A stretch of 64,000 nt of DNA from Lysobacter spongiicola DSM 21749 (lineage in GTDB: Bacteria; Pseudomonadota; Gammaproteobacteria; Xanthomonadales; Xanthomonadaceae): positions 62,001-126,000 of the forward strand of contig NZ_FUXP01000004.1 in NCBI RefSeq assembly GCF_900167055.1, read 5' to 3'. A program made the position numbers and the translations under genes. Below the pieces are notes generated by a model. That model saw only the letters and a list, made by a program, of their open reading frames with translations. It was not told where the DNA came from and ran no database searches. This document shows positions 367 through 7,859 of the stretch, piece by piece; positions within the stretch are counted from its first letter, which is position 1; the number at the start of each line of letters is the position of its first letter.

Positions 367-670
367 GATCCTTTCCCGGTCGCAACCAGCGACATGGTCG
401 CACGGCCGGCGTCCGCGCCGGACCATACGCCACCGTTGTACAGCTCTGTCCCCCGGTGGTGCCCCGGGTGTTACATCGGAGCCGGGGCCAATGGACACGC
501 GGCTTTCACGGCCGGCCCGGGCCCGGCCAGTCAGCGAGGTGATACAGCCGTGAAACACATACCTGTGGCGCCCCGGTCGCGTAAAAAACGCAACTCCATG
601 ATTTAAAAAGGAATCCGAGGTTGGCACGCGGCATGCGTTGGTCCCTGCACACGATTCGCAGGACATCTCC
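367..670. promoter_or_regulatory. Divergent intergenic region upstream of the fap-like operon
   Basis: This 304-bp gap separates the leftward oxygenase gene from the rightward fap-like operon. It holds a GC-rich dyad at 510-528 (GGCCGG...CCGGCC), an A-rich patch at 584-609 that is unusual for this genome, and the sigma-54-type promoter described separately. An enhancer-binding activator would be expected to bind upstream of that promoter, but I could not pick out a convincing repeated operator. Confidence 0.5.
622..637 (+). promoter_or_regulatory. Sigma-54 (RpoN) -24/-12 promoter of the fap-like operon
   Basis: The sequence TGGCACGCGGCATGCG has TGGCAC at 622-627 and ATGC at 633-636. The invariant GG (623-624) and GC (635-636) are spaced exactly as in the RpoN consensus TGGCACG-N4-TTGCW; only the first T of the -12 TTGC is replaced by A. 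Transcription would start near 648, about 22 nt before the first start codon at 671. A gene for an RpoN activator with the GAFTGA loop lies at the other end of the operon, which supports the call. Confidence 0.82.
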
Positions 671-1210
671 ATGGCCGTCTCCATCCGCCCGTTCCACTGC
701 ATCCCGGTCGCCTTTGTCGCCGGTCTGCTGCTCACTGCCCCTCCGGCCTCCGCTTCCGGCGGGCGCCAGGGCGTGCATGCCGTGGGCGGGGAGATGGTGA
801 TCCTCCGTGACGTATCCGCACGGCCCGCCTACCGCCCCGCCCCCCCGGGCATGGCGCTGATCGTCGACCCGTCCCCGGTCAACGAAATCAACATGATGCT
901 CGGCCTGGGCGAGATGTCCGACGCGGAATACGCGGAGATCGGCGCCGGCAGTGGACCCGACCTCGGCCCCGGCGGCCATGCCCCCACCACCATGGTGGAG
1001 CGGGTGGCCGGCGGAGCGATCAACGGCAGTCTGGGACGCGTGACCGACCGGGGCGGGATTCTTTCCGGAACCGGCATGACCGGCGCCATGAGCGCGCCGA
1101 TGGGCGCGATGGGCAACACCACCCGCGGCATCGGCGACCACGTCAAGGGCGCGCTGTCCCAGTTCCCCCTGTTCACCCAGCCCGCCACCAGCGGCGCCCC
1201 GGGGGGCTGA
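671..1210 (+). CDS. Exported protein in the fapA position of a fap-like amyloid operon
   Basis: This is a 179-residue protein with an N-terminal signal peptide (cleavage probably after ASA near residue 29). The start at 671 is preferred because it has AGGA upstream and lies downstream of the sigma-54 promoter; an in-frame TTG at 638 overlaps the promoter and is rejected. The mature part is rich in Gly, Met and Pro, with no domain that I recognise, and contains a SDAEY stretch that recalls the DAEL motif in the fapE-like protein of the same operon. By position (first of six, before the repeat proteins) it could be the periplasmic chaperone-like FapA, but I cannot show sequence similarity. The next gene starts one base after its stop codon. 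Confidence 0.55.
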   Translation: MAVSIRPFHCIPVAFVAGLLLTAPPASASGGRQGVHAVGGEMVILRDVSARPAYRPAPPGMALIVDPSPVNEINMMLGLGEMSDAEYAEIGAGSGPDLGPGGHAPTTMVERVAGGAINGSLGRVTDRGGILSGTGMTGAMSAPMGAMGNTTRGIGDHVKGALSQFPLFTQPATSGAPGG

Positions 1211-1211
1211 G

Positions 1212-1865
1212 ATGAACCTGCGACACCTGCCCCGCAACTGCGCAGCGGTCCTCGCGCTGTGTGCCGGCGCGATCGTGGTGCCGCCGGCCGACGCCCAGGC
1301 CCCGCCGGACGAGTACGACCGCATGCTCGGTTACCTCGCCGACACCCGCATCGACGGCAACGCCCTGGCGGGAGCCAATGGCGCCATCGCGATCAACCAG
1401 GCAGCCGGGGATCTCAACCGCCAGGCCAACCTGCGCTCGATCGCGAGCGGCCGGCATGCATCGGCCGACGTGCGCGCGGCCCAGCACCAGGTCGCGGACC
1501 GCCACGACAGCCCTTCCGAGGCATCCGCCGTGATCGGCGGTCGCGCGCTCGATGGCGCCAGCGGCCTGGCCTCGATCAACCAGGCCAGCGGCAGCGGCAA
1601 CAGCGAAATGAACGTGGTCGCGGTGACGCTGGCCACCCAGGGCATGCGCGAGGCAGACGACGGGAATGCACCCGCCGCCTCCCCCGCGTCGGCAGGGGGG
1701 CAGCCCCCGCTGAACCGGACGCCGGCGAAGGCCGGCCTCCGCCACGTCGCGGTGGAGGCCACCGCGCTGCACGGATTCAGCGGAGTGCTGCAACTCAATC
1801 AGGTCGCGGGCGCCGGAAACGCCACCGGGAACCAGCTCGGGCTGTCCATCCAGGGCGGCCCGTAG
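1212..1865 (+). CDS. fapB: Fap-type amyloid repeat protein, FapB-like minor subunit
   Basis: A 217-residue exported protein with a signal peptide (cleavage after ADA, about residue 28). It carries three spaced copies of a GxxGxxxxNQxxGxxNxxxN unit at about residues 54-78, 115-140 and 188-212 (for example INQAAGDLNRQAN). The same type of unit occurs in the next gene and in the fapE-like gene. In Pseudomonas, FapB and FapC share such Asn/Gln-containing repeats, and FapB acts as the minor subunit or nucleator of the fibre. Small size, three repeats and position before the large repeat protein make FapB the best match. The linkers between repeats are Ala/Pro/Gly-rich. Translation is probably coupled to the upstream gene. 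Confidence 0.7.
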   Translation: MNLRHLPRNCAAVLALCAGAIVVPPADAQAPPDEYDRMLGYLADTRIDGNALAGANGAIAINQAAGDLNRQANLRSIASGRHASADVRAAQHQVADRHDSPSEASAVIGGRALDGASGLASINQASGSGNSEMNVVAVTLATQGMREADDGNAPAASPASAGGQPPLNRTPAKAGLRHVAVEATALHGFSGVLQLNQVAGAGNATGNQLGLSIQGGP

Positions 1866-1890
1866 GACGCCCGCGACCCTTCGTCCAACA

Positions 1891-1900
1891 GTGGTACCAC
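1891..1900. promoter_or_regulatory. Palindrome ahead of the main fibre gene
   Basis: GTGGTACCAC is a perfect 10-bp palindrome in the 57-bp gap between the FapB-like and FapC-like genes, just before a purine-rich ribosome binding region (GAGAGAGAGAGGAAA, 1904-1918). It may be an operator or a small RNA stem near the ribosome binding site. The function is inferred from location only. Confidence 0.3.
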
Positions 1901-1922
1901 CAAGAGAGAGAGAGGAAACACC

Positions 1923-3428
1923 ATGAACAGCACCATCAGGAAGACCGGACTCGCACTGGCTGTCGCCGCACTCGCGGCCAGCCCGGCGGCCTTCGCGCAG
2001 GACGACCAGAACGCCAGCGCCAACATCGACCACCAGCACGTGGTGAACGAGGACTGGGACATCGACGTCGATGACACCCGCGACTACATCCTCAACAACG
2101 ACACCACCAACACGACCACGACCAACACCTACAACAACACGGTCAACAACCTGACCAACAACACCGCCAACAACACGGTCGACACCAATGTCGACCTGTC
2201 GCTCGACGCCGCCGCCCGCCTGCGGCTGAACGCGGCCGCGAACATCCAGTTCGATGGCGACTACGACGAGACCATCAGCAGCACCGAGAGCTATCGCTAC
2301 AGCGAGAATGTCGTATTCGAAGACATCCAGCGCACCGAGAACGTCCAGTCGGACATCCGCCGCGAAGGCAACGAGCACCAGGTGTCCGTCTCGCTCGAGA
2401 AGGACCTGTCGCTGAGCTCGGACATCAACTTCTCCGGCGACCCGACCATCAGCGGCGACATCGCCATCGATTCGGCCGCCATCGCCGTGGTCGACAATCG
2501 CCAGTCGGTCACCGGCAACGTCGGTTACAACGACATGCTCGACAACGACGCCTCGATAGCCGACGACGCCGCCGAAGGCGCCGCGGGCAACCTGGCGTTC
2601 AACGTCGCGGCCGGCGACAACAACGTCCAGGACAACGCCGTTGCCCTGTCCGCTGCCGACGCCAGCTTCGCCTTCGGCATGGCCGATGCGGAAGTGTTCG
2701 TGAACCAGGTCGGCTCCGGCAACGGCACCATCAACATGGGCGTAGCCAACGACGCCAGCATCGGTGGCAACGCGTTCGCCAATGCCGCCGGCAACCTCGG
2801 CGTCAACGTCGCTTCGGGCAACAACAACTCGCAGAAGAACGCGATGGCCGCCTCGGTGGCGACCGCCGCCTATGCGCAGTCCAGCGTCAGCTCGAACCAG
2901 ATGTCCTCGGGCAACGTGACCTCCAACGAAGGCAGCTTCACCACCGTGCAGGACAGCATCGCCATCAACCTGGGCGGCACCGTCAGCGGCTCGGCCGACG
3001 GCACCTACGAGGGGTCCGGCGCTTCCTACCAGCAGTCCAACTTCTATCCGGACTACTGGGAAGGCAACACCCATCCCGACGGCACGCAGCTGGGCCACAT
3101 CGACTATGACAACGATGCCCAGGGCGCGGTCGAGAACCCGAACCGTGACGGCGTCGGTGGCTTCGCGTTCGACAACGAAGAGAGCGGCGTCATCGCCCTC
3201 GACGACATGGCGCTCGATGCCAGCCTGAGCGGCACGCTGGACTTCAGCTACCAGGTCGCCGTGGCTGCCACCAACAGCGCCACGCTCGATGGCAGTGCCT
3301 TCCAGGGCGCGTCGGGCAACATCGGCGTGAACATCGCCTCGGGCACCGGCAACATGCAGGCCAACAGCCTGGCCATGGCCGTGGCACAGCCGTCCACCGG
3401 TGGTGGCGGCGGCGGTGGCGAGCAGTAA
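1923..3428 (+). CDS. fapC: Fap-type functional amyloid fibre subunit, FapC-like
   Basis: A 501-residue exported protein (signal peptide to about residue 26, ending AFAQ). After the signal comes an unusual Asn/Thr-rich stretch (about 57-90). Three amyloid-type repeats follow at about 219-241, 284-311 and 460-488, with the core GNLGVNVASGNNNSQKN or close variants (FNVAAGDNNVQDN, GVNIASGTGNMQAN). This agrees well with the Fap repeat pattern GVNxAAGxxNxQxN as I recall it from Pseudomonas FapC, which also has three repeats joined by variable linkers. It ends in a Gly run and EQ. The product is predicted to be secreted through the FapF-like pore and to assemble into extracellular fibres in biofilm. 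A strong hairpin follows the gene. Confidence 0.75.
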   Translation: MNSTIRKTGLALAVAALAASPAAFAQDDQNASANIDHQHVVNEDWDIDVDDTRDYILNNDTTNTTTTNTYNNTVNNLTNNTANNTVDTNVDLSLDAAARLRLNAAANIQFDGDYDETISSTESYRYSENVVFEDIQRTENVQSDIRREGNEHQVSVSLEKDLSLSSDINFSGDPTISGDIAIDSAAIAVVDNRQSVTGNVGYNDMLDNDASIADDAAEGAAGNLAFNVAAGDNNVQDNAVALSAADASFAFGMADAEVFVNQVGSGNGTINMGVANDASIGGNAFANAAGNLGVNVASGNNNSQKNAMAASVATAAYAQSSVSSNQMSSGNVTSNEGSFTTVQDSIAINLGGTVSGSADGTYEGSGASYQQSNFYPDYWEGNTHPDGTQLGHIDYDNDAQGAVENPNRDGVGGFAFDNEESGVIALDDMALDASLSGTLDFSYQVAVAATNSATLDGSAFQGASGNIGVNIASGTGNMQANSLAMAVAQPSTGGGGGGGEQ

Positions 3429-3487
3429 GCGCTAGTACCGCAACCCCGCGTCAACCCCGGCCATCCCCCTGGTGGCCGGGTTCCCCG

Positions 3488-3523
3488 AAAGCCCCGCTCC
3501 ACTTCCCCCGGGAGCGGGGCTTT
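3488..3523 (+). terminator. Intra-operon hairpin after the fibre gene
   Basis: AAAGCCCCGCTCC (3488-3500) and GGAGCGGGGCTTT (3511-3523) form a perfect 13-bp stem with a 10-nt loop, followed by CCCTTCT. It lies between the fibre gene and the C39 peptidase gene. It could act as a partial terminator or an RNA-stabilising 3' end, giving more fibre-subunit mRNA than export-protein mRNA. There is no long U tract, so read-through is likely. Confidence 0.65.
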
Positions 3524-3546
3524 CCCTTCTAAGGAATGGACCCACC

Positions 3547-4248
3547 ATGTTTCGACACCTCCTGCTCGCCGTGTTGGCTTCCTGCAGCGCGCTGGCATCG
3601 CTGCCGGCGTTGGCGGCGGAAGTCGGCTTCAGTGGCGTGCTTCCCAACGGGGCGCTCTATACACAGCCCGTGGAAAGCATGCGGGAGCAACGTTTCAAGT
3701 ACCTGGTAAGGCAACAGACCGACTACAGCTGCGGCGCTGCCTCGCTGGCCACCATCCTGCGCTACGCCTACCACCTGGACGCGGACGAAGAGACCGTCAT
3801 CCAGGGCATGTTGCGCGTCGCAGACGCCGAACTGGTCGCCCAGCGCGGCTTCTCGCTGCTGGACATCAAGCACTACATCGAATCGCTTGGCCTGCGCGGC
3901 CGTGGTTACCGGGTCGACGAGGAACGCCTGCGTTCGCTTCGGATCCCGGCGCTGGTCCTGATGGACGTGCGCGGCTTCCGGCACTTCGTGGTGCTCAAGC
4001 AGGTCAACGGCGACTACGTGGAAGTGGCCGACCCGATCCTGGGCAACCGCAGCGTGCCGTTCGACGAGTTCCTGGAGTCGTGGCCTTCGCGCGCGGTGTT
4101 CGTCGTTATTGGCAGTGACTTCGACCGCAATACCGTTTTGCTCGAGCCCTCCGGGCGGGCCAGTGCCCGCACGCTGCTGGCCCGGCAATCCCCCATTTCC
4201 GATGCCGAACTGCTCGACTTCGGTTTCACCCATGCAGACCTGTTCTAA
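3547..4248 (+). CDS. fapD: C39-family peptidase, FapD-like
   Basis: A 233-residue protein with a signal peptide (cleavage after ALA, about residue 23). The papain-like C39 domain is clear: catalytic Cys62 in DYSCGAAS, His146 in FRHFVVLK and Asp162 in VADPILG. The usual oxyanion Gln sits shortly before the Cys (RQQTDYSC). C39 domains in bacteriocin exporters cut after double-glycine leaders; here the domain stands alone and is exported, as in FapD of Pseudomonas, where it is needed for fibre secretion. The start at 3547 follows AAGGAATGG. The stop overlaps the ribosome binding site of the next gene (10-bp gap), so the two are coupled. Confidence 0.78.
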   Translation: MFRHLLLAVLASCSALASLPALAAEVGFSGVLPNGALYTQPVESMREQRFKYLVRQQTDYSCGAASLATILRYAYHLDADEETVIQGMLRVADAELVAQRGFSLLDIKHYIESLGLRGRGYRVDEERLRSLRIPALVLMDVRGFRHFVVLKQVNGDYVEVADPILGNRSVPFDEFLESWPSRAVFVVIGSDFDRNTVLLEPSGRASARTLLARQSPISDAELLDFGFTHADLF

Positions 4249-4258
4249 GGAGGGTGCC

Positions 4259-5038
4259 ATGCGACCCCCGTATCTCCTGATCCTGGCAGCCGGCCTCGGT
4301 GGCTTCTTTCCCGCGGTCGACGCGACCGCCGCAGAAGCGGAGCGCCCCACCGCCAGGGGATTGACCGAAATTCCCGACGCGGAGCTCAACCTGATGCGCG
4401 GCCGCTATACCGTCGGCCACAACGAAGTGGCGTGGTTCGGCGTGTCGATGATCTCCACCTGGCAGGACGCCGCGGGCCAGACCCTGCAGAGCACGATGAC
4501 GCTGGGCATGGATTTCTCCGGCTCCGGTGCGCCCGAGCTCAGCTTCACCCCCACCGTCAGCATCACCGCCGCCGATGCGCCGCTGCCGGTCACCGCCGAC
4601 GGGGTGCAGCGCAGCGTCGACGGCTCGGGCCTGGCCAACGCCTCGGGCCTGGTGCAGAGCGTGCAGGTGGCCGGTGACGGCAACCTCGCCAACAACCTCA
4701 CCCAGTTGAACGTGCGCGATGGCGACGCACCCGCCGCCGGCACCGGGGCGGCGACTGCAGGCTCGGCCTCGACCAGTGCAGGCAGCGCCGTTGCCAGCGC
4801 CAGCTTCGACGGCTCGGCTGCTCAGGTAATGCTGCAGATCCAAGGCCAGGGCGCGGTGCGCCAGTGGATCGGAAGCGGCAGCCTGGGCCAGACCATCCAG
4901 CTGACCAGCGACAACCAGCAGGTCAGCAACCGGATGCAGGTGGACCTGGTCCGCCAGCCGCTGGCGGCCAACACGATGCTTGCCCAGAACGTGGCGCAGG
5001 CGATGACCATGACCCGCGGAATCGGGTCCGGCTATTGA
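4259..5038 (+). CDS. fapE: Fap-system protein, FapE-like
   Basis: A 259-residue exported protein with a signal peptide (about residues 1-25). The N-terminal part has PDAELNLMRGRYTVG (39-53) followed by FGVSMISTWQ, which I recall as a feature of FapE-like proteins, though from memory only. One copy of the fap-type repeat appears at about 124-149 (NASGLVQSVQVAGDGNLANN), linking it to the two subunit genes upstream. An Ala/Ser/Thr/Gly-rich linker follows. FapE in Pseudomonas is a minor component found with the fibres. The ribosome binding site AAGGAGGG is strong, so the start is well supported. Confidence 0.68.
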   Translation: MRPPYLLILAAGLGGFFPAVDATAAEAERPTARGLTEIPDAELNLMRGRYTVGHNEVAWFGVSMISTWQDAAGQTLQSTMTLGMDFSGSGAPELSFTPTVSITAADAPLPVTADGVQRSVDGSGLANASGLVQSVQVAGDGNLANNLTQLNVRDGDAPAAGTGAATAGSASTSAGSAVASASFDGSAAQVMLQIQGQGAVRQWIGSGSLGQTIQLTSDNQQVSNRMQVDLVRQPLAANTMLAQNVAQAMTMTRGIGSGY

Positions 5039-5072
5039 GCGCGTCGCGGGGGCGACGGTGCGGGGGATGACG

Positions 5073-6491
5073 ATGGACAGGAACATGCAGTTGCAGGCCA
5101 GGGCGCTCGCCCTGGCGATCGCGGGCGGCCTGGTGGCCGCTTTTCCCGGCGGCGTGCTCGCCCAGCAGTCCCCGACCGGTGCCCAGCCGGTCAGCCCGGG
5201 CACGGATGGCGACATCGACCCGGCCGAGGTGCGGGCGTTGCTGGGCCAGCTGGAATCGCTGAAGCAGAGCTATGCCCAGGAGGTCCGCAGGCTCCGTGAG
5301 CTGGACATGCAGGTGCAGGCGCTGCAGGCCAAGCTGGAGGGGCGATCCATGCCCGCCAGCGCGGGAGGGCCTCCGCCCGGAGCGACGCCGGCGACGGCAC
5401 GGCCGGCCCCGTCGGCCGCCAGCCGCGTTGCCAGCCAACCCGCCCAACCCTCCCAGCCGACCCAGCCGTCCCAGCCGCAGGAAGGCTACGCCAGCACCGC
5501 CACCGAGGCCCGCGAGGCGCAGGAAGCGGCACGGCGCAGCGTCGACGATGTCAAACAGCAACAGGCCGCACTGTTCAACCGCCGGCTGACGCTGGAGAAC
5601 AGCATCGCCTACAACCGCTATGACCGTAAGCAGCTCACCCTGACCGGCTTTCTGGCGCTGGACGCGATTTTCCTGGGCAACATCGCCATCGAGAACGTCG
5701 AATCCGACACCCTCACCCACAACTTCGCGCTGCGCTACGGGCTCAACCCGCGGTTGACGCTGAACCTCGACGTGCCCTACATCGCGCGCAAGACCGTCTA
5801 CCAGAAGGGTGGCGCCGGCGGTTCTGCCGCCGCCATCGCACAGGAGGACACCACCGGCCATGGACTGGGGGATGTCACCTTCAGCGGCAACTACCGGCTG
5901 ATCGCCGAGCGTGAGCGCTGGCCGGAAACCGTATTGACGCTGGGCGTGACGGCACCGACCGGACGTGAGCCCTACGGGATTTCCTGGGACGTGCTGGAGC
6001 GCGACGATGACGGCTTCATCCGCTTCGCGGTGCCGGAGAAGGAGCCGACCGGCAACGGTGTCTGGCAGGCCAACCTCGGCGTGTCGATGGTCAAGACCAC
6101 CGATCCGGCGATCCTGTTCGCCAACGCCGGCTATATCCATTCGGTGGAAGCCAGCTTCGACGACCTGGACAACAATCCGGACACCACCAACCCCGGCGAC
6201 GTGCAACTGGGGCGGTCGGTGTACTTCGGTGCCGGCGTCGCATTCGCCTTCAACGAGCGCACCAGCCTCAGCATCTCGGTCAGCGACAAGCTCAGCGCGC
6301 GTGCACGGACCCGCTATGAAGGCCAGGAGTGGCTGAAGGTGATCGGCAGCGACGCCAACGCCGCGATGTTCAACCTCGGCGTGACCTATGCGTTGAACCA
6401 GAACACCACGCTGGTCAGCCAGCTGGGCATCGGCCTGACGCCTGATGCGCCGGACTTCAGCCTCGTCTTCAAGGTGCCCTACATGCTGTGA
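5073..6491 (+). CDS. fapF: Outer-membrane fibre export pore, FapF-like
   Basis: A 472-residue protein with signal peptide (to about residue 30, VLAQ), a heptad coiled coil (about 52-90, VRALLGQLESLKQSYAQEVR), a Pro/Gln-rich linker (93-145), a second helical stretch (150-180) and a C-terminal region of alternating amphipathic strands ending FKVPYML, as expected of an outer-membrane beta-barrel. FapF is known as a trimeric barrel with an N-terminal coiled coil that gates secretion of the Fap subunits, and this layout matches. ATG at 5073 is chosen because GGGGG lies at 5062-5066; ATG 5067 and GTG 5058 are alternatives. It is the last gene of the operon. Confidence 0.75.
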   Translation: MDRNMQLQARALALAIAGGLVAAFPGGVLAQQSPTGAQPVSPGTDGDIDPAEVRALLGQLESLKQSYAQEVRRLRELDMQVQALQAKLEGRSMPASAGGPPPGATPATARPAPSAASRVASQPAQPSQPTQPSQPQEGYASTATEAREAQEAARRSVDDVKQQQAALFNRRLTLENSIAYNRYDRKQLTLTGFLALDAIFLGNIAIENVESDTLTHNFALRYGLNPRLTLNLDVPYIARKTVYQKGGAGGSAAAIAQEDTTGHGLGDVTFSGNYRLIAERERWPETVLTLGVTAPTGREPYGISWDVLERDDDGFIRFAVPEKEPTGNGVWQANLGVSMVKTTDPAILFANAGYIHSVEASFDDLDNNPDTTNPGDVQLGRSVYFGAGVAFAFNERTSLSISVSDKLSARARTRYEGQEWLKVIGSDANAAMFNLGVTYALNQNTTLVSQLGIGLTPDAPDFSLVFKVPYML

Positions 6492-6499
6492 GCAATGCC

Positions 6500-6519
6500 G
6501 GGCCGGGGCCGCCCGGCCC
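6500..6519. terminator. Hairpin between convergent fapF-like and sigma-54 activator genes
   Basis: GGGCCGGG (6500-6507) pairs with CCCGGCCC (6512-6519) around a 4-nt loop. It is the only structure in the 33-bp gap between two convergent stop codons and could serve both strands. There is no T tract on either side. Confidence 0.4.
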
Positions 6520-6524
6520 CTGGC

Positions 6525-7859
6525 TCAGCGCAGCTCGTCGAGCGCGAGCGAGTGCTTCTTGCACAGGCGGTAGACGGTGACCCGCGAGACCTTGAGCCGT
6601 CGCGCGACCTCGCTGACGTTGAAATCGCTTTCCTTCAGGCAGGTCAGCACCGCGTCGTGCTCGGCGACCTCCCGGGCGGAATCCAGGCCGCCATCGTTGG
6701 CGGCCACGTCCGTCACCGGCAGTTCCATGTCCTGGGCGGTGATCAGCTCGGACTCCGCCACCACCGCCGCGCGCTGCACACGGTTAAGCAGCTCGCGCAC
6801 ATTGCCGGGCCATTCGAAGCGCGCCATCGCCCGCCGTGCGGAGGCGCTGAAGCCGCGGGCGCGTCCCGGGTGTTTGCCCCGGAAGGTCTCCAGGAAATGC
6901 GTGGCCAGCAGCGGAATGTCCTCGCCGCGGTCGGCGAGGCGCGGCATCTGCAGGCGCAGGACGTTGAGGCGGTAGTACAGGTCGCTGCGGAACCGGCCGC
7001 TGGCGACGGCAGCCTCCAGGTCGACGTTGGTGGCCGCCAGCACCCGCACGTCCACGGCGATCGGCTGGTTGCTGCCGACACGCTCCAGGCTCGACTCCTG
7101 CAGCACGCGCAACAGGTTGGTCTGCGCCTCCAGCGGCAGGTCACCGATCTCGTCGAGGAACACCGTGCCGCCGTTGGCCGACTCGAACAGGCCGGCGCGG
7201 CGGGCGGTCGCGCCGGTGAATGCACCCCGCTCGTGGCCGAACAGCTCCGATTGCAGCAGGTTGGCCGGCAGCGCACCGCAGTTGACGGCCATGAAGGGCC
7301 GGGCATGGCGCGGCGACAGCTCGTGCAGCGCGCGGGCCGCCACCTCCTTGCCGGTGCCGGTCTGGCCGGTGATCAGCACCGGCAGGTCCACCGGCGCGTA
7401 CTTGCGGATCGCCGCCTGGGTCTTGCGCATGACCGGGCTCCGGCCGATCACCGCGTCGATGCCACGGCCGCGGGGCATGAACTGCTGGCCGCGCAGCCCG
7501 TCGAGCGCGCGGATCAGCCGCGTCGTGTCGACCGGCGCCGGCAGGGTTTCGCTGCATCGCTCCAGCAGCGCCCCGGCGGCATCGGAATCCGGCCGCCGCG
7601 GGGGCACGATCGCGACCAGGGACAGCAGGGTGAGGTCGCTGGCCAGTTGCTCGAGGCCGCGCAGGGCTTCCGGCCCCATCGACCTCAGGTCGACCATGCC
7701 GACCACGGTGTCGGCTGCGCGAAGGCCGACGCGGGCGTGGGATCCCGGTTCGGCGACCCTGACCTGCCAACCCGCGGCTGCGAGCGCGTCCTTCTCCTGT
7801 TGCAGCGGTGTGCCGAACCAGATCACGCACTGGTCGGCGGATTCCCGGACTGCAGCCAT
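6525..7859 (-). CDS. Sigma-54-dependent transcriptional activator (VpsR/NtrC type)
   Basis: A 444-residue enhancer-binding protein. The N-terminal 130 residues resemble the pseudo-receiver of VpsR-type regulators and lack an obvious phospho-acceptor context. The AAA+ domain (about 135-375) has Walker A GQTGTGKE (165-172), the sigma-54-contacting loop GAFTGA (212-217) and Walker B VFLDEIGD (233-240). The C-terminus (about 400-440) is a Fis-type helix-turn-helix (NVSEVARRLKVSRVTVYRL). ATG 7859 is preferred because GGGGGAA lies upstream. It converges on the fap-like operon, which has an RpoN promoter, so it is the obvious candidate activator. VpsR of Vibrio responds to c-di-GMP; whether this one does is not visible. 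Confidence 0.88.
   Translation of the reverse strand: MAAVRESADQCVIWFGTPLQQEKDALAAAGWQVRVAEPGSHARVGLRAADTVVGMVDLRSMGPEALRGLEQLASDLTLLSLVAIVPPRRPDSDAAGALLERCSETLPAPVDTTRLIRALDGLRGQQFMPRGRGIDAVIGRSPVMRKTQAAIRKYAPVDLPVLITGQTGTGKEVAARALHELSPRHARPFMAVNCGALPANLLQSELFGHERGAFTGATARRAGLFESANGGTVFLDEIGDLPLEAQTNLLRVLQESSLERVGSNQPIAVDVRVLAATNVDLEAAVASGRFRSDLYYRLNVLRLQMPRLADRGEDIPLLATHFLETFRGKHPGRARGFSASARRAMARFEWPGNVRELLNRVQRAAVVAESELITAQDMELPVTDVAANDGGLDSAREVAEHDAVLTCLKESDFNVSEVARRLKVSRVTVYRLCKKHSLALDELR

Follow-up and report, generated by a model that had tools for sequence, protein, structure and literature searches.

We analyzed an operon at positions 621-7859 of a 64,000-nucleotide stretch of Lysobacter spongiicola DSM 21749 (contig NZ_FUXP01000004.1, positions 62,001 to 126,000; hereafter the window) and found that its six genes, fapA to fapF, are a complete and probably working set for Fap amyloid fibers, a known kind of biofilm scaffold. 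Comparison with related loci exposed a conserved leader-like segment in FapE, through which FapE is probably recognized as a substrate by the C39 peptidase FapD. The interest lies chiefly in this FapE site, since the operon and its regulation are already of known kind. We infer, with considerable confidence, that fapABCDEF makes a Fap fiber and is switched on by RpoN and the neighboring BrfA-type activator, a reading that includes the proposed FapD-FapE step; the leader step by itself we hold to be only somewhat more probable than its negation. Gene identities, motifs with their conservation, and gene linkage are observed in the sequences; fiber formation, cleavage and regulation are conclusions drawn from them.

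The six open reading frames (ORFs) are co-directional (671-6491), all six frames are open, and the genes are ordered A-B-C-D-E-F on one strand, followed by a convergent sigma-54 activator (6525-7859). The start codons of fapE (ATG 4259) and of the activator (ATG 7859) were verified, and signal peptides, including that of FapD, were assessed by eye.

671-1210, plus strand: fapA, 179 residues, exported, putative chaperone (NCBIfam NF058617, E 3e-7, below the cut-off)
1212-1865, plus strand: fapB, 217 residues, minor or nucleator subunit (NF058557, E 2e-25)
1923-3428, plus strand: fapC, 501 residues, main fiber subunit, without Cys (NF058558, E 2e-45)
3547-4248, plus strand: fapD, 233 residues, exported C39 peptidase (NF058616, E 3e-79)
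4259-5038, plus strand: fapE, 259 residues, minor secreted subunit (NF058559, E 6e-29)
5058-6491, plus strand: fapF, 477 residues, outer-membrane barrel with an N-terminal coiled-coil region (NF058560, E 3e-110; PDB 5o65)

A sequence-only reading of this DNA had described a fapABCDEF-like operon, and the profile searches bear this out: the best NCBIfam match of each protein was the corresponding Fap protein, FapA to FapF in order, in a search that used fapA two codons and fapE one codon too long. FapF matched the solved FapF barrel (PDB 5o65) with E 1.9e-80, and FapC matched two Pseudomonas FapC structures, PDB 9nqd and 9u4u, with E 3e-11 and 4e-11, from residue 185 onward. The best fold match of the FapC model was again 9u4u, although this is a low-confidence model (mean predicted local distance difference test score, pLDDT, of 60.7, with residues 1-180 nearly all below 50). 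In the last protein, for which a coiled coil and a predicted barrel had been described, the barrel is attested by NF058560 and 5o65, and the coiled coil by weak family matches below the cut-off. Because the evidence from profiles, repeats, sequences of solved structures and gene order is in agreement, we identify the operon as Fap.

Weighing against this identification, all six proteins fall under the NCBIfam equivalog cut-offs. In a sample of 398 genomes from this order, none passed the FapF cut-off, 59 of them with a strong FapF (a row above 300 bits, counted by hand), so the cut-off excludes this order as sampled; passing an equivalog cut-off is no defining feature of a Fap system. The low scores, and the lack in window FapC of the CxxC present in some Pseudomonas, might instead be taken to mean that the operon is decaying or that no fiber is produced. 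We find this hardly credible: the six frames are open, catalytic and repeat residues are intact, relatives at 40-82% identity in Fap proteins keep the same parts, and P. putida likewise has no CxxC (PMC3684753).

For comparison, related loci were sorted into groups. Class A consists of orthologous operons, of which the best 80 of 475 relatives were kept; we take it to be nearly all Lysobacteraceae or Rhodanobacteraceae, the exceptions by record being Bacillus subtilis (L062), [Pseudomonas] hibiscicola (L080) and an unclassified gammaproteobacterium (L125). In the first of these, labelled Bacillus subtilis SK7B5, the fap operon is Stenotrophomonas-like, and contamination or mislabelling is probable. 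Class B (L038-L042, L144-L148) has a FapF about 37% identical and one to four tandem fapC with CxxC. The eight Pseudomonas-like loci came from a phylum draw in which seven genomes exceeded the FapE cut-off and one fell short of it. In class C, a FapD homologue is paired with a remote homologue of FapF, 25-29% identical and scoring 140-170 bits against the FapF profile.

FapD had been read as a stand-alone C39 peptidase with an intact Cys/His/Asp triad. The triad is invariant in 80/80 aligned FapD, and the fold of the FapD model matches the C39 leader peptidases 7n87 and 6mpz.

3730, 3982 and 4030, plus strand: FapD triad codons Cys62, His146 and Asp162

In Pseudomonas UK4, FapC secretion depends on the catalytic activity of FapD, and the FapD target was called unclear (PMC5557850); it is also stated as unknown in PMC6173800. 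The Fap proteins are said to have no canonical C39 sequences (PMC5557850).

C39 leaders are recognized by Leu at -12, Glu at -8, Leu at -7 and a hydrophobic residue at -4, before Gly-Gly, Gly-Ala or Gly-Ser (PMC6363468). A segment near the N-terminus of window FapE has a hydrophobic residue at -12, Glu at -8, Leu at -7, a hydrophobic residue at -4 and Gly at -2.

4367-4408, plus strand: FapE leader motif EIPDAELNLMRGRY (residues 37-50), just past the signal peptide, with the proposed cut after Arg49 (4405/4406)

The pattern [ILV]-x3-E-[LM]-x2-[ML]-R-G-[RK]-[YF] was present in 117/120 FapE: 80/81 in class A, 10/10 in class B, 14/14 among other loci, 8/8 among the Pseudomonas-like loci and 5/7 among further loci. 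The misses are L128, whose protein is truncated, and L208 and L210, both of which come near to matching. Among the 117, Gly stands at -2 in all, -1 is Arg in 100 and Lys in 17, and +1 is Tyr in 100 and Phe in 17; these three positions are fixed by the pattern itself, outside which three proteins fall. Glu occupies -8 in 99, and -7 is Leu in 105 and Met in 12. A related leader pattern occurred in 1/400 background proteins vs 74/81 class A FapE; for the other Fap proteins, leader pattern matches numbered 0/80 in FapB, 1/79 in FapC and 0/81 in FapF. The leader patterns were composed after the window proteins had been inspected. By mass spectrometry in UK4, FapE was the sole Fap protein whose N-terminal peptides were lost completely (PMC5557850). 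FapE is noted there to have GG and GA motifs; in the accessible literature, including PMC5557850, PMC5135000, PMC3684753 and PMC7764130, with supplements and subscription papers outside the scope, we found no mention of the FapE leader motif.

The class C sister systems bear on this site. We counted 29 loci (26 from Xanthomonadales plus Cupriavidus, Polymorphobacter and Croceicoccus; L043-L048, L150-L169, L171-L173). Outside this count stand L170 (Vibrio) and L174 (the Acinetobacter Fil plasmid locus), in neither of which a FapE-like gene was resolved, most class C places from the order survey, and other plasmid matches. In 29/29, the product of the gene lying between the FapD and FapF homologues is FapE-like and carries L-x-x-x-R-G-G at the corresponding position. 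The class C FapE profile was seeded with sequences picked for RGGF and was free to find others; for L160 and L171 the RGG motif was taken from a separate scan, the profile strings showing another RGG. In the first 6/6 class C loci, a small exported protein with a Gly-Gly leader is encoded upstream of the peptidase, and a crude pattern found one in 7 of the next 20, the rest being unresolved. In L151 and L172, no NCBIfam or Pfam family matched the FapE-like and small exported proteins over the cut-off. Because a conserved motif with C39 spacing has a Gly-Gly counterpart in 29/29 sister loci, FapE is a probable substrate of FapD, and together these make the question of the FapD target a peptide-cleavage experiment.

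Several observations weigh against cleavage at this site. The main one is that -1, in each of the 117 matching FapE, is a basic residue (Arg or Lys) rather than a small one (Gly, Ala or Ser), and a narrow pocket has been linked to the small residues at the C39 cut (PMC6363468). In UK4, FapE peptides were absent over about 70 residues, beyond what removal by this site alone would account for (PMC5557850). Against the main reading more generally, Fap-like repeats in the small subunits of the sister systems were marginal at best (best E 0.004, most above 0.1). If FapE is recognized through this segment, either the cut has shifted to Gly-Arg/Lys or recognition alone has been retained. A cut after Arg or Lys would look tryptic, so a trypsin digest could not reveal the new end.

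Arg or Lys at -1, being atypical of C39, also suits a reading in which the motif serves FapE structure, or is a helix docking to FapF, and FapD cuts elsewhere, for instance within the linker of FapF or at GG/GA sites that FapE has outside the motif, both of which have been proposed (PMC5557850). The class A motif, moreover, continues into a conserved WFGV segment. We regard this as possible but rather doubtful, because the leader spacing is kept in 117/120 FapE, the equivalent place is Gly-Gly in every one of the 29 sister loci pairing FapD and FapF homologues, and the leader pattern has no match in 81 FapF.

The following scheme is proposed. FapB and FapC would be exported by Sec, would cross the outer membrane via the FapF trimer and would polymerize with FapB as nucleator. 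Periplasmic C39 FapD would bind mature FapE at its N-terminal leader-like segment (EIPDAELNLMRG-RY) and cut there, which would either license FapE secretion or release FapE to open FapF. Such a licensing or release step would explain the reported need of both FapD catalysis and FapE for FapC secretion in Pseudomonas.

Leader-like segments were also seen in FapA, where a loose leader pattern is present in 71/80 proteins, and at the C-terminus of FapD.

914-949, plus strand: leader-like motif MSDAEYAEIGAG in FapA (residues 82-93), from the alignment
4195-4227, plus strand: FapD C-terminal segment ISDAELLDFGF (residues 217-227), leader-like, with low model confidence

A tail end resembling HADLF is found in 78/80 class A FapD vs 0/29 class C enzymes; the tail of the latter is equally long (71-74 residues after Asp) and differs in sequence, and the segment is degraded in the two class B tails inspected. 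Docking of the FapD tail in the leader groove was considered and dropped as unsupported, given low pLDDT (below 50 for residues 223-233 and about 59 for 211-220). Tentatively, and as a proposal whose chances we judge close to balanced, FapD may be a periplasmic leader peptidase that reads a C39 leader motif retained in FapE; this motif would descend from a true Gly-Gly site in a broader family of secretion systems with a C39 enzyme and a FapF-type barrel and would now be cut at Gly-Arg/Lys, with uncut FapA and FapD-tail segments competing for the one groove and so timing secretion. The competing or self-blocking role of the FapA segment and FapD tail is a guess, because the class C tails differ, those of class B are degraded and model confidence is low.

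The fiber subunits were examined with the Fap repeat pattern X15GX4NX3GX6NX7 (PMC3792158). Three proteins had been said to share an Asn/Gln-containing repeat; FapB and FapC carry three exact copies each, and 0/2000 shuffles of either gave three cores, but FapE has no exact copy and one degenerate copy by eye.

1335-1451, 1518-1634 and 1737-1853, plus strand: FapB repeats, exact pattern matches
2541-2657, plus strand: FapC repeat 1, exact pattern match
2745-2861, plus strand: FapC repeat 2, exact pattern match
3270-3386, plus strand: FapC repeat 3, exact pattern match
2091-2198, plus strand: FapC Asn/Thr-rich tract, coded by imperfect short tandem repeats with periods of 6 to 36 bases

In class A (leaving out L122, L128 and L129; starts chosen by script), the spacing from FapC repeat 1 to repeat 2 is 68 residues in 77/77 FapC measured, that between repeats 2 and 3 ranges from 149 to 215 residues, and 60 to 298 residues, signal peptide counted, lie ahead of repeat 1. 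In Pseudomonas FapC, the first linker is constrained and the second variable (35-259 residues), and length differences are ascribed to linkers (PMC12392863). The sequence-only reading had held that the Asn/Thr stretch and long linkers of window FapC were unlike Pseudomonas. The stretch is real, the best 35 residues being 71% Asn+Thr compared with 40% for the next best and a median of 14% among 201 stop-to-stop ORFs of at least 150 residues in the window, but the second linker can be long in Pseudomonas as well. What is unusual in window FapC is the long variable N-terminal region ahead of repeat 1, not the linkers. The best 35-residue stretch reaches at least 40% Asn+Thr in 69/77 class A FapC, and imperfect short tandem repeats encode the tract in L057 as they do in the window. 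Such coding would make in-frame lengthening by slippage possible, so that tract length may vary in this way. We regard this hypervariable N-terminal part of FapC, rich in Asn and Thr, as a probable flexible coat around the fiber. We also tried a profile of the region before repeat 1 as a new FapC domain; it matches 77/78 class A proteins and others weakly (best E 0.007), and was rejected. Because other FapC have a comparable pre-repeat segment by eye, we claim the Asn/Thr tract alone as an addition.

Sigma-54 control of the operon had been offered as a regulatory hypothesis. It has comparative support and is not new: in P. fluorescens PF07, fapA has an RpoN promoter and the reverse gene brfA lies adjacent, downstream of fapF (PMC9207406). 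Since this arrangement is published, regulation here is of a known kind, and the linkage of fap and activator generalizes the Pseudomonas arrangement.

621-637, plus strand: candidate sigma-54 -24/-12 promoter TTGGCACGCGGCATGCG, 33 bases from the fapA ATG, at a conserved position
6525-7859, minus strand: BrfA-type sigma-54 activator, 444 residues, with a VpsR-like N-terminal domain, an AAA+ domain with GAFTGA and a Fis-type helix-turn-helix

Argued from the window alone, the site is no better than chance and that line was abandoned: 34 -24/-12 sites with at most two mismatches occur in the window vs 33 expected. We therefore relied on conserved position. A site scoring at least 9 of 13 lies near the fapA start in 78/80 (the window plus 79 loci; the misses are L109 and L129), in a scan that required the GG and GC pairs and whose observed score was matched by 146/4000 single-base shuffles, and all 10 class B loci have a site scoring at least 10 of 13. 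The activator Walker A/B and GAFTGA are kept in 80, with Ser replacing the first Ala of GAFTGA in 17. In class A, the activator adjoins fap in 79/80, at most 514 bases away, the exception being L116, where the contig edge comes 346 bases past fapF; in 16 of these 79 it is upstream and divergent rather than downstream. It is also linked in 10/10 class B loci (up to 5.9 kb away), 13/15 other loci, one of the remaining two (L136) having a partial activator at the contig end, 8/8 Pseudomonas-like loci, where its place is that seen in the window, and 4/6 further loci. The genome surveyed (3.1 Mb, 31 contigs) has two rpoN genes and only six sigma-54 activators at E 1e-30.

Besides the chance-level count of sites, the Pseudomonas-like loci tell against this control: in none of the eight did the scan yield a -24/-12 site that convinced us (best scores from 8 to 11), with fapA not located in three of them. 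One could thus suppose that the linked activator serves another operon and that other regulators run fap. This seems to us quite unlikely, since promoter and activator stay with fap in nearly all of class A, even when the activator is upstream, no activator was found in six sister loci of about 18 kb, and RpoN and BrfA control has been demonstrated in P. fluorescens (PMC9207406). A cyclic di-GMP pocket of the FleQ type was also considered for the activator, and its residues are mostly not conserved: in a hand-counted alignment of the three FleQ arginines that hold cyclic di-GMP, Arg144 corresponds to Asp, Arg334 to Thr and Arg185 to Arg (Arg in 26/80), so cyclic di-GMP is at most a candidate signal here. 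In Lysobacter tolerans UM1 (L123, 11279-14225), two neighboring sigma-54 activators follow fapF.

Further features were noted among the relatives. In L038 to L041, class B operons have both flanks matching those of class A in the genus of the window, which places two types of fap operon in the same chromosomal slot. Class B fapC encodes 255-281 residues where resolved, and weak upstream fapA matches in L040, L147 and L148 suggest that this class carries a divergent fapA. L205 has fapBCDE twice in tandem, the second copy followed by the sole fapF found there, with one activator upstream. L149 (NZ_AP026896.1) is a fap operon on a 4.9 Mb Aeromonas caviae record that is filed as a plasmid and resembles a chromosome.

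Among known systems, Acinetobacter Fil (FilA, FilB, FilC) shares a C39 peptidase and a FapF-like barrel and gives weaker NCBIfam matches to window FapD and FapF; it differs in that FapD and FapF are by far the better-scoring assignments for the window proteins and that no FapE-like gene was seen in the single Fil locus examined. Earlier work had already described homologues of fapD and fapF lying together in other phyla (PMC6173800). RpoN/BrfA control in P. fluorescens PF07 (PMC9207406, PMC13101488) has the same -24/-12 site before fapA and convergent activator after fapF; the published brfA is 1326 bp, and an activator ORF of that length (441 residues) is present in 5/8 Pseudomonas-like loci, whereas the window activator is about 44-45% identical over 427 residues to the closest full-length Pseudomonas-like matches and mostly does not keep the cyclic di-GMP residues of the FleQ type. 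With the C39 leader peptidases LahT150 and PCAT1 (6mpz, 7n87), FapD has in common the catalytic fold and, in its proposed substrate, the leader spacing of -12, -8, -7, -4 and -2, but it is exported and stand-alone, and the proposed site has Arg or Lys at -1. Pseudomonas Fap (UK4, PAO1) shares the order of the genes, the three repeats of both FapB and FapC, a C39 FapD, the FapF barrel and, in 8/8 Pseudomonas-like loci, the FapE leader motif; window FapC differs in its long Asn/Thr-rich N-terminus and lack of CxxC, and the window sequences lie below the equivalog cut-offs. With this operon, a biofilm amyloid that was already known is extended, together with its regulator, to a further genus.

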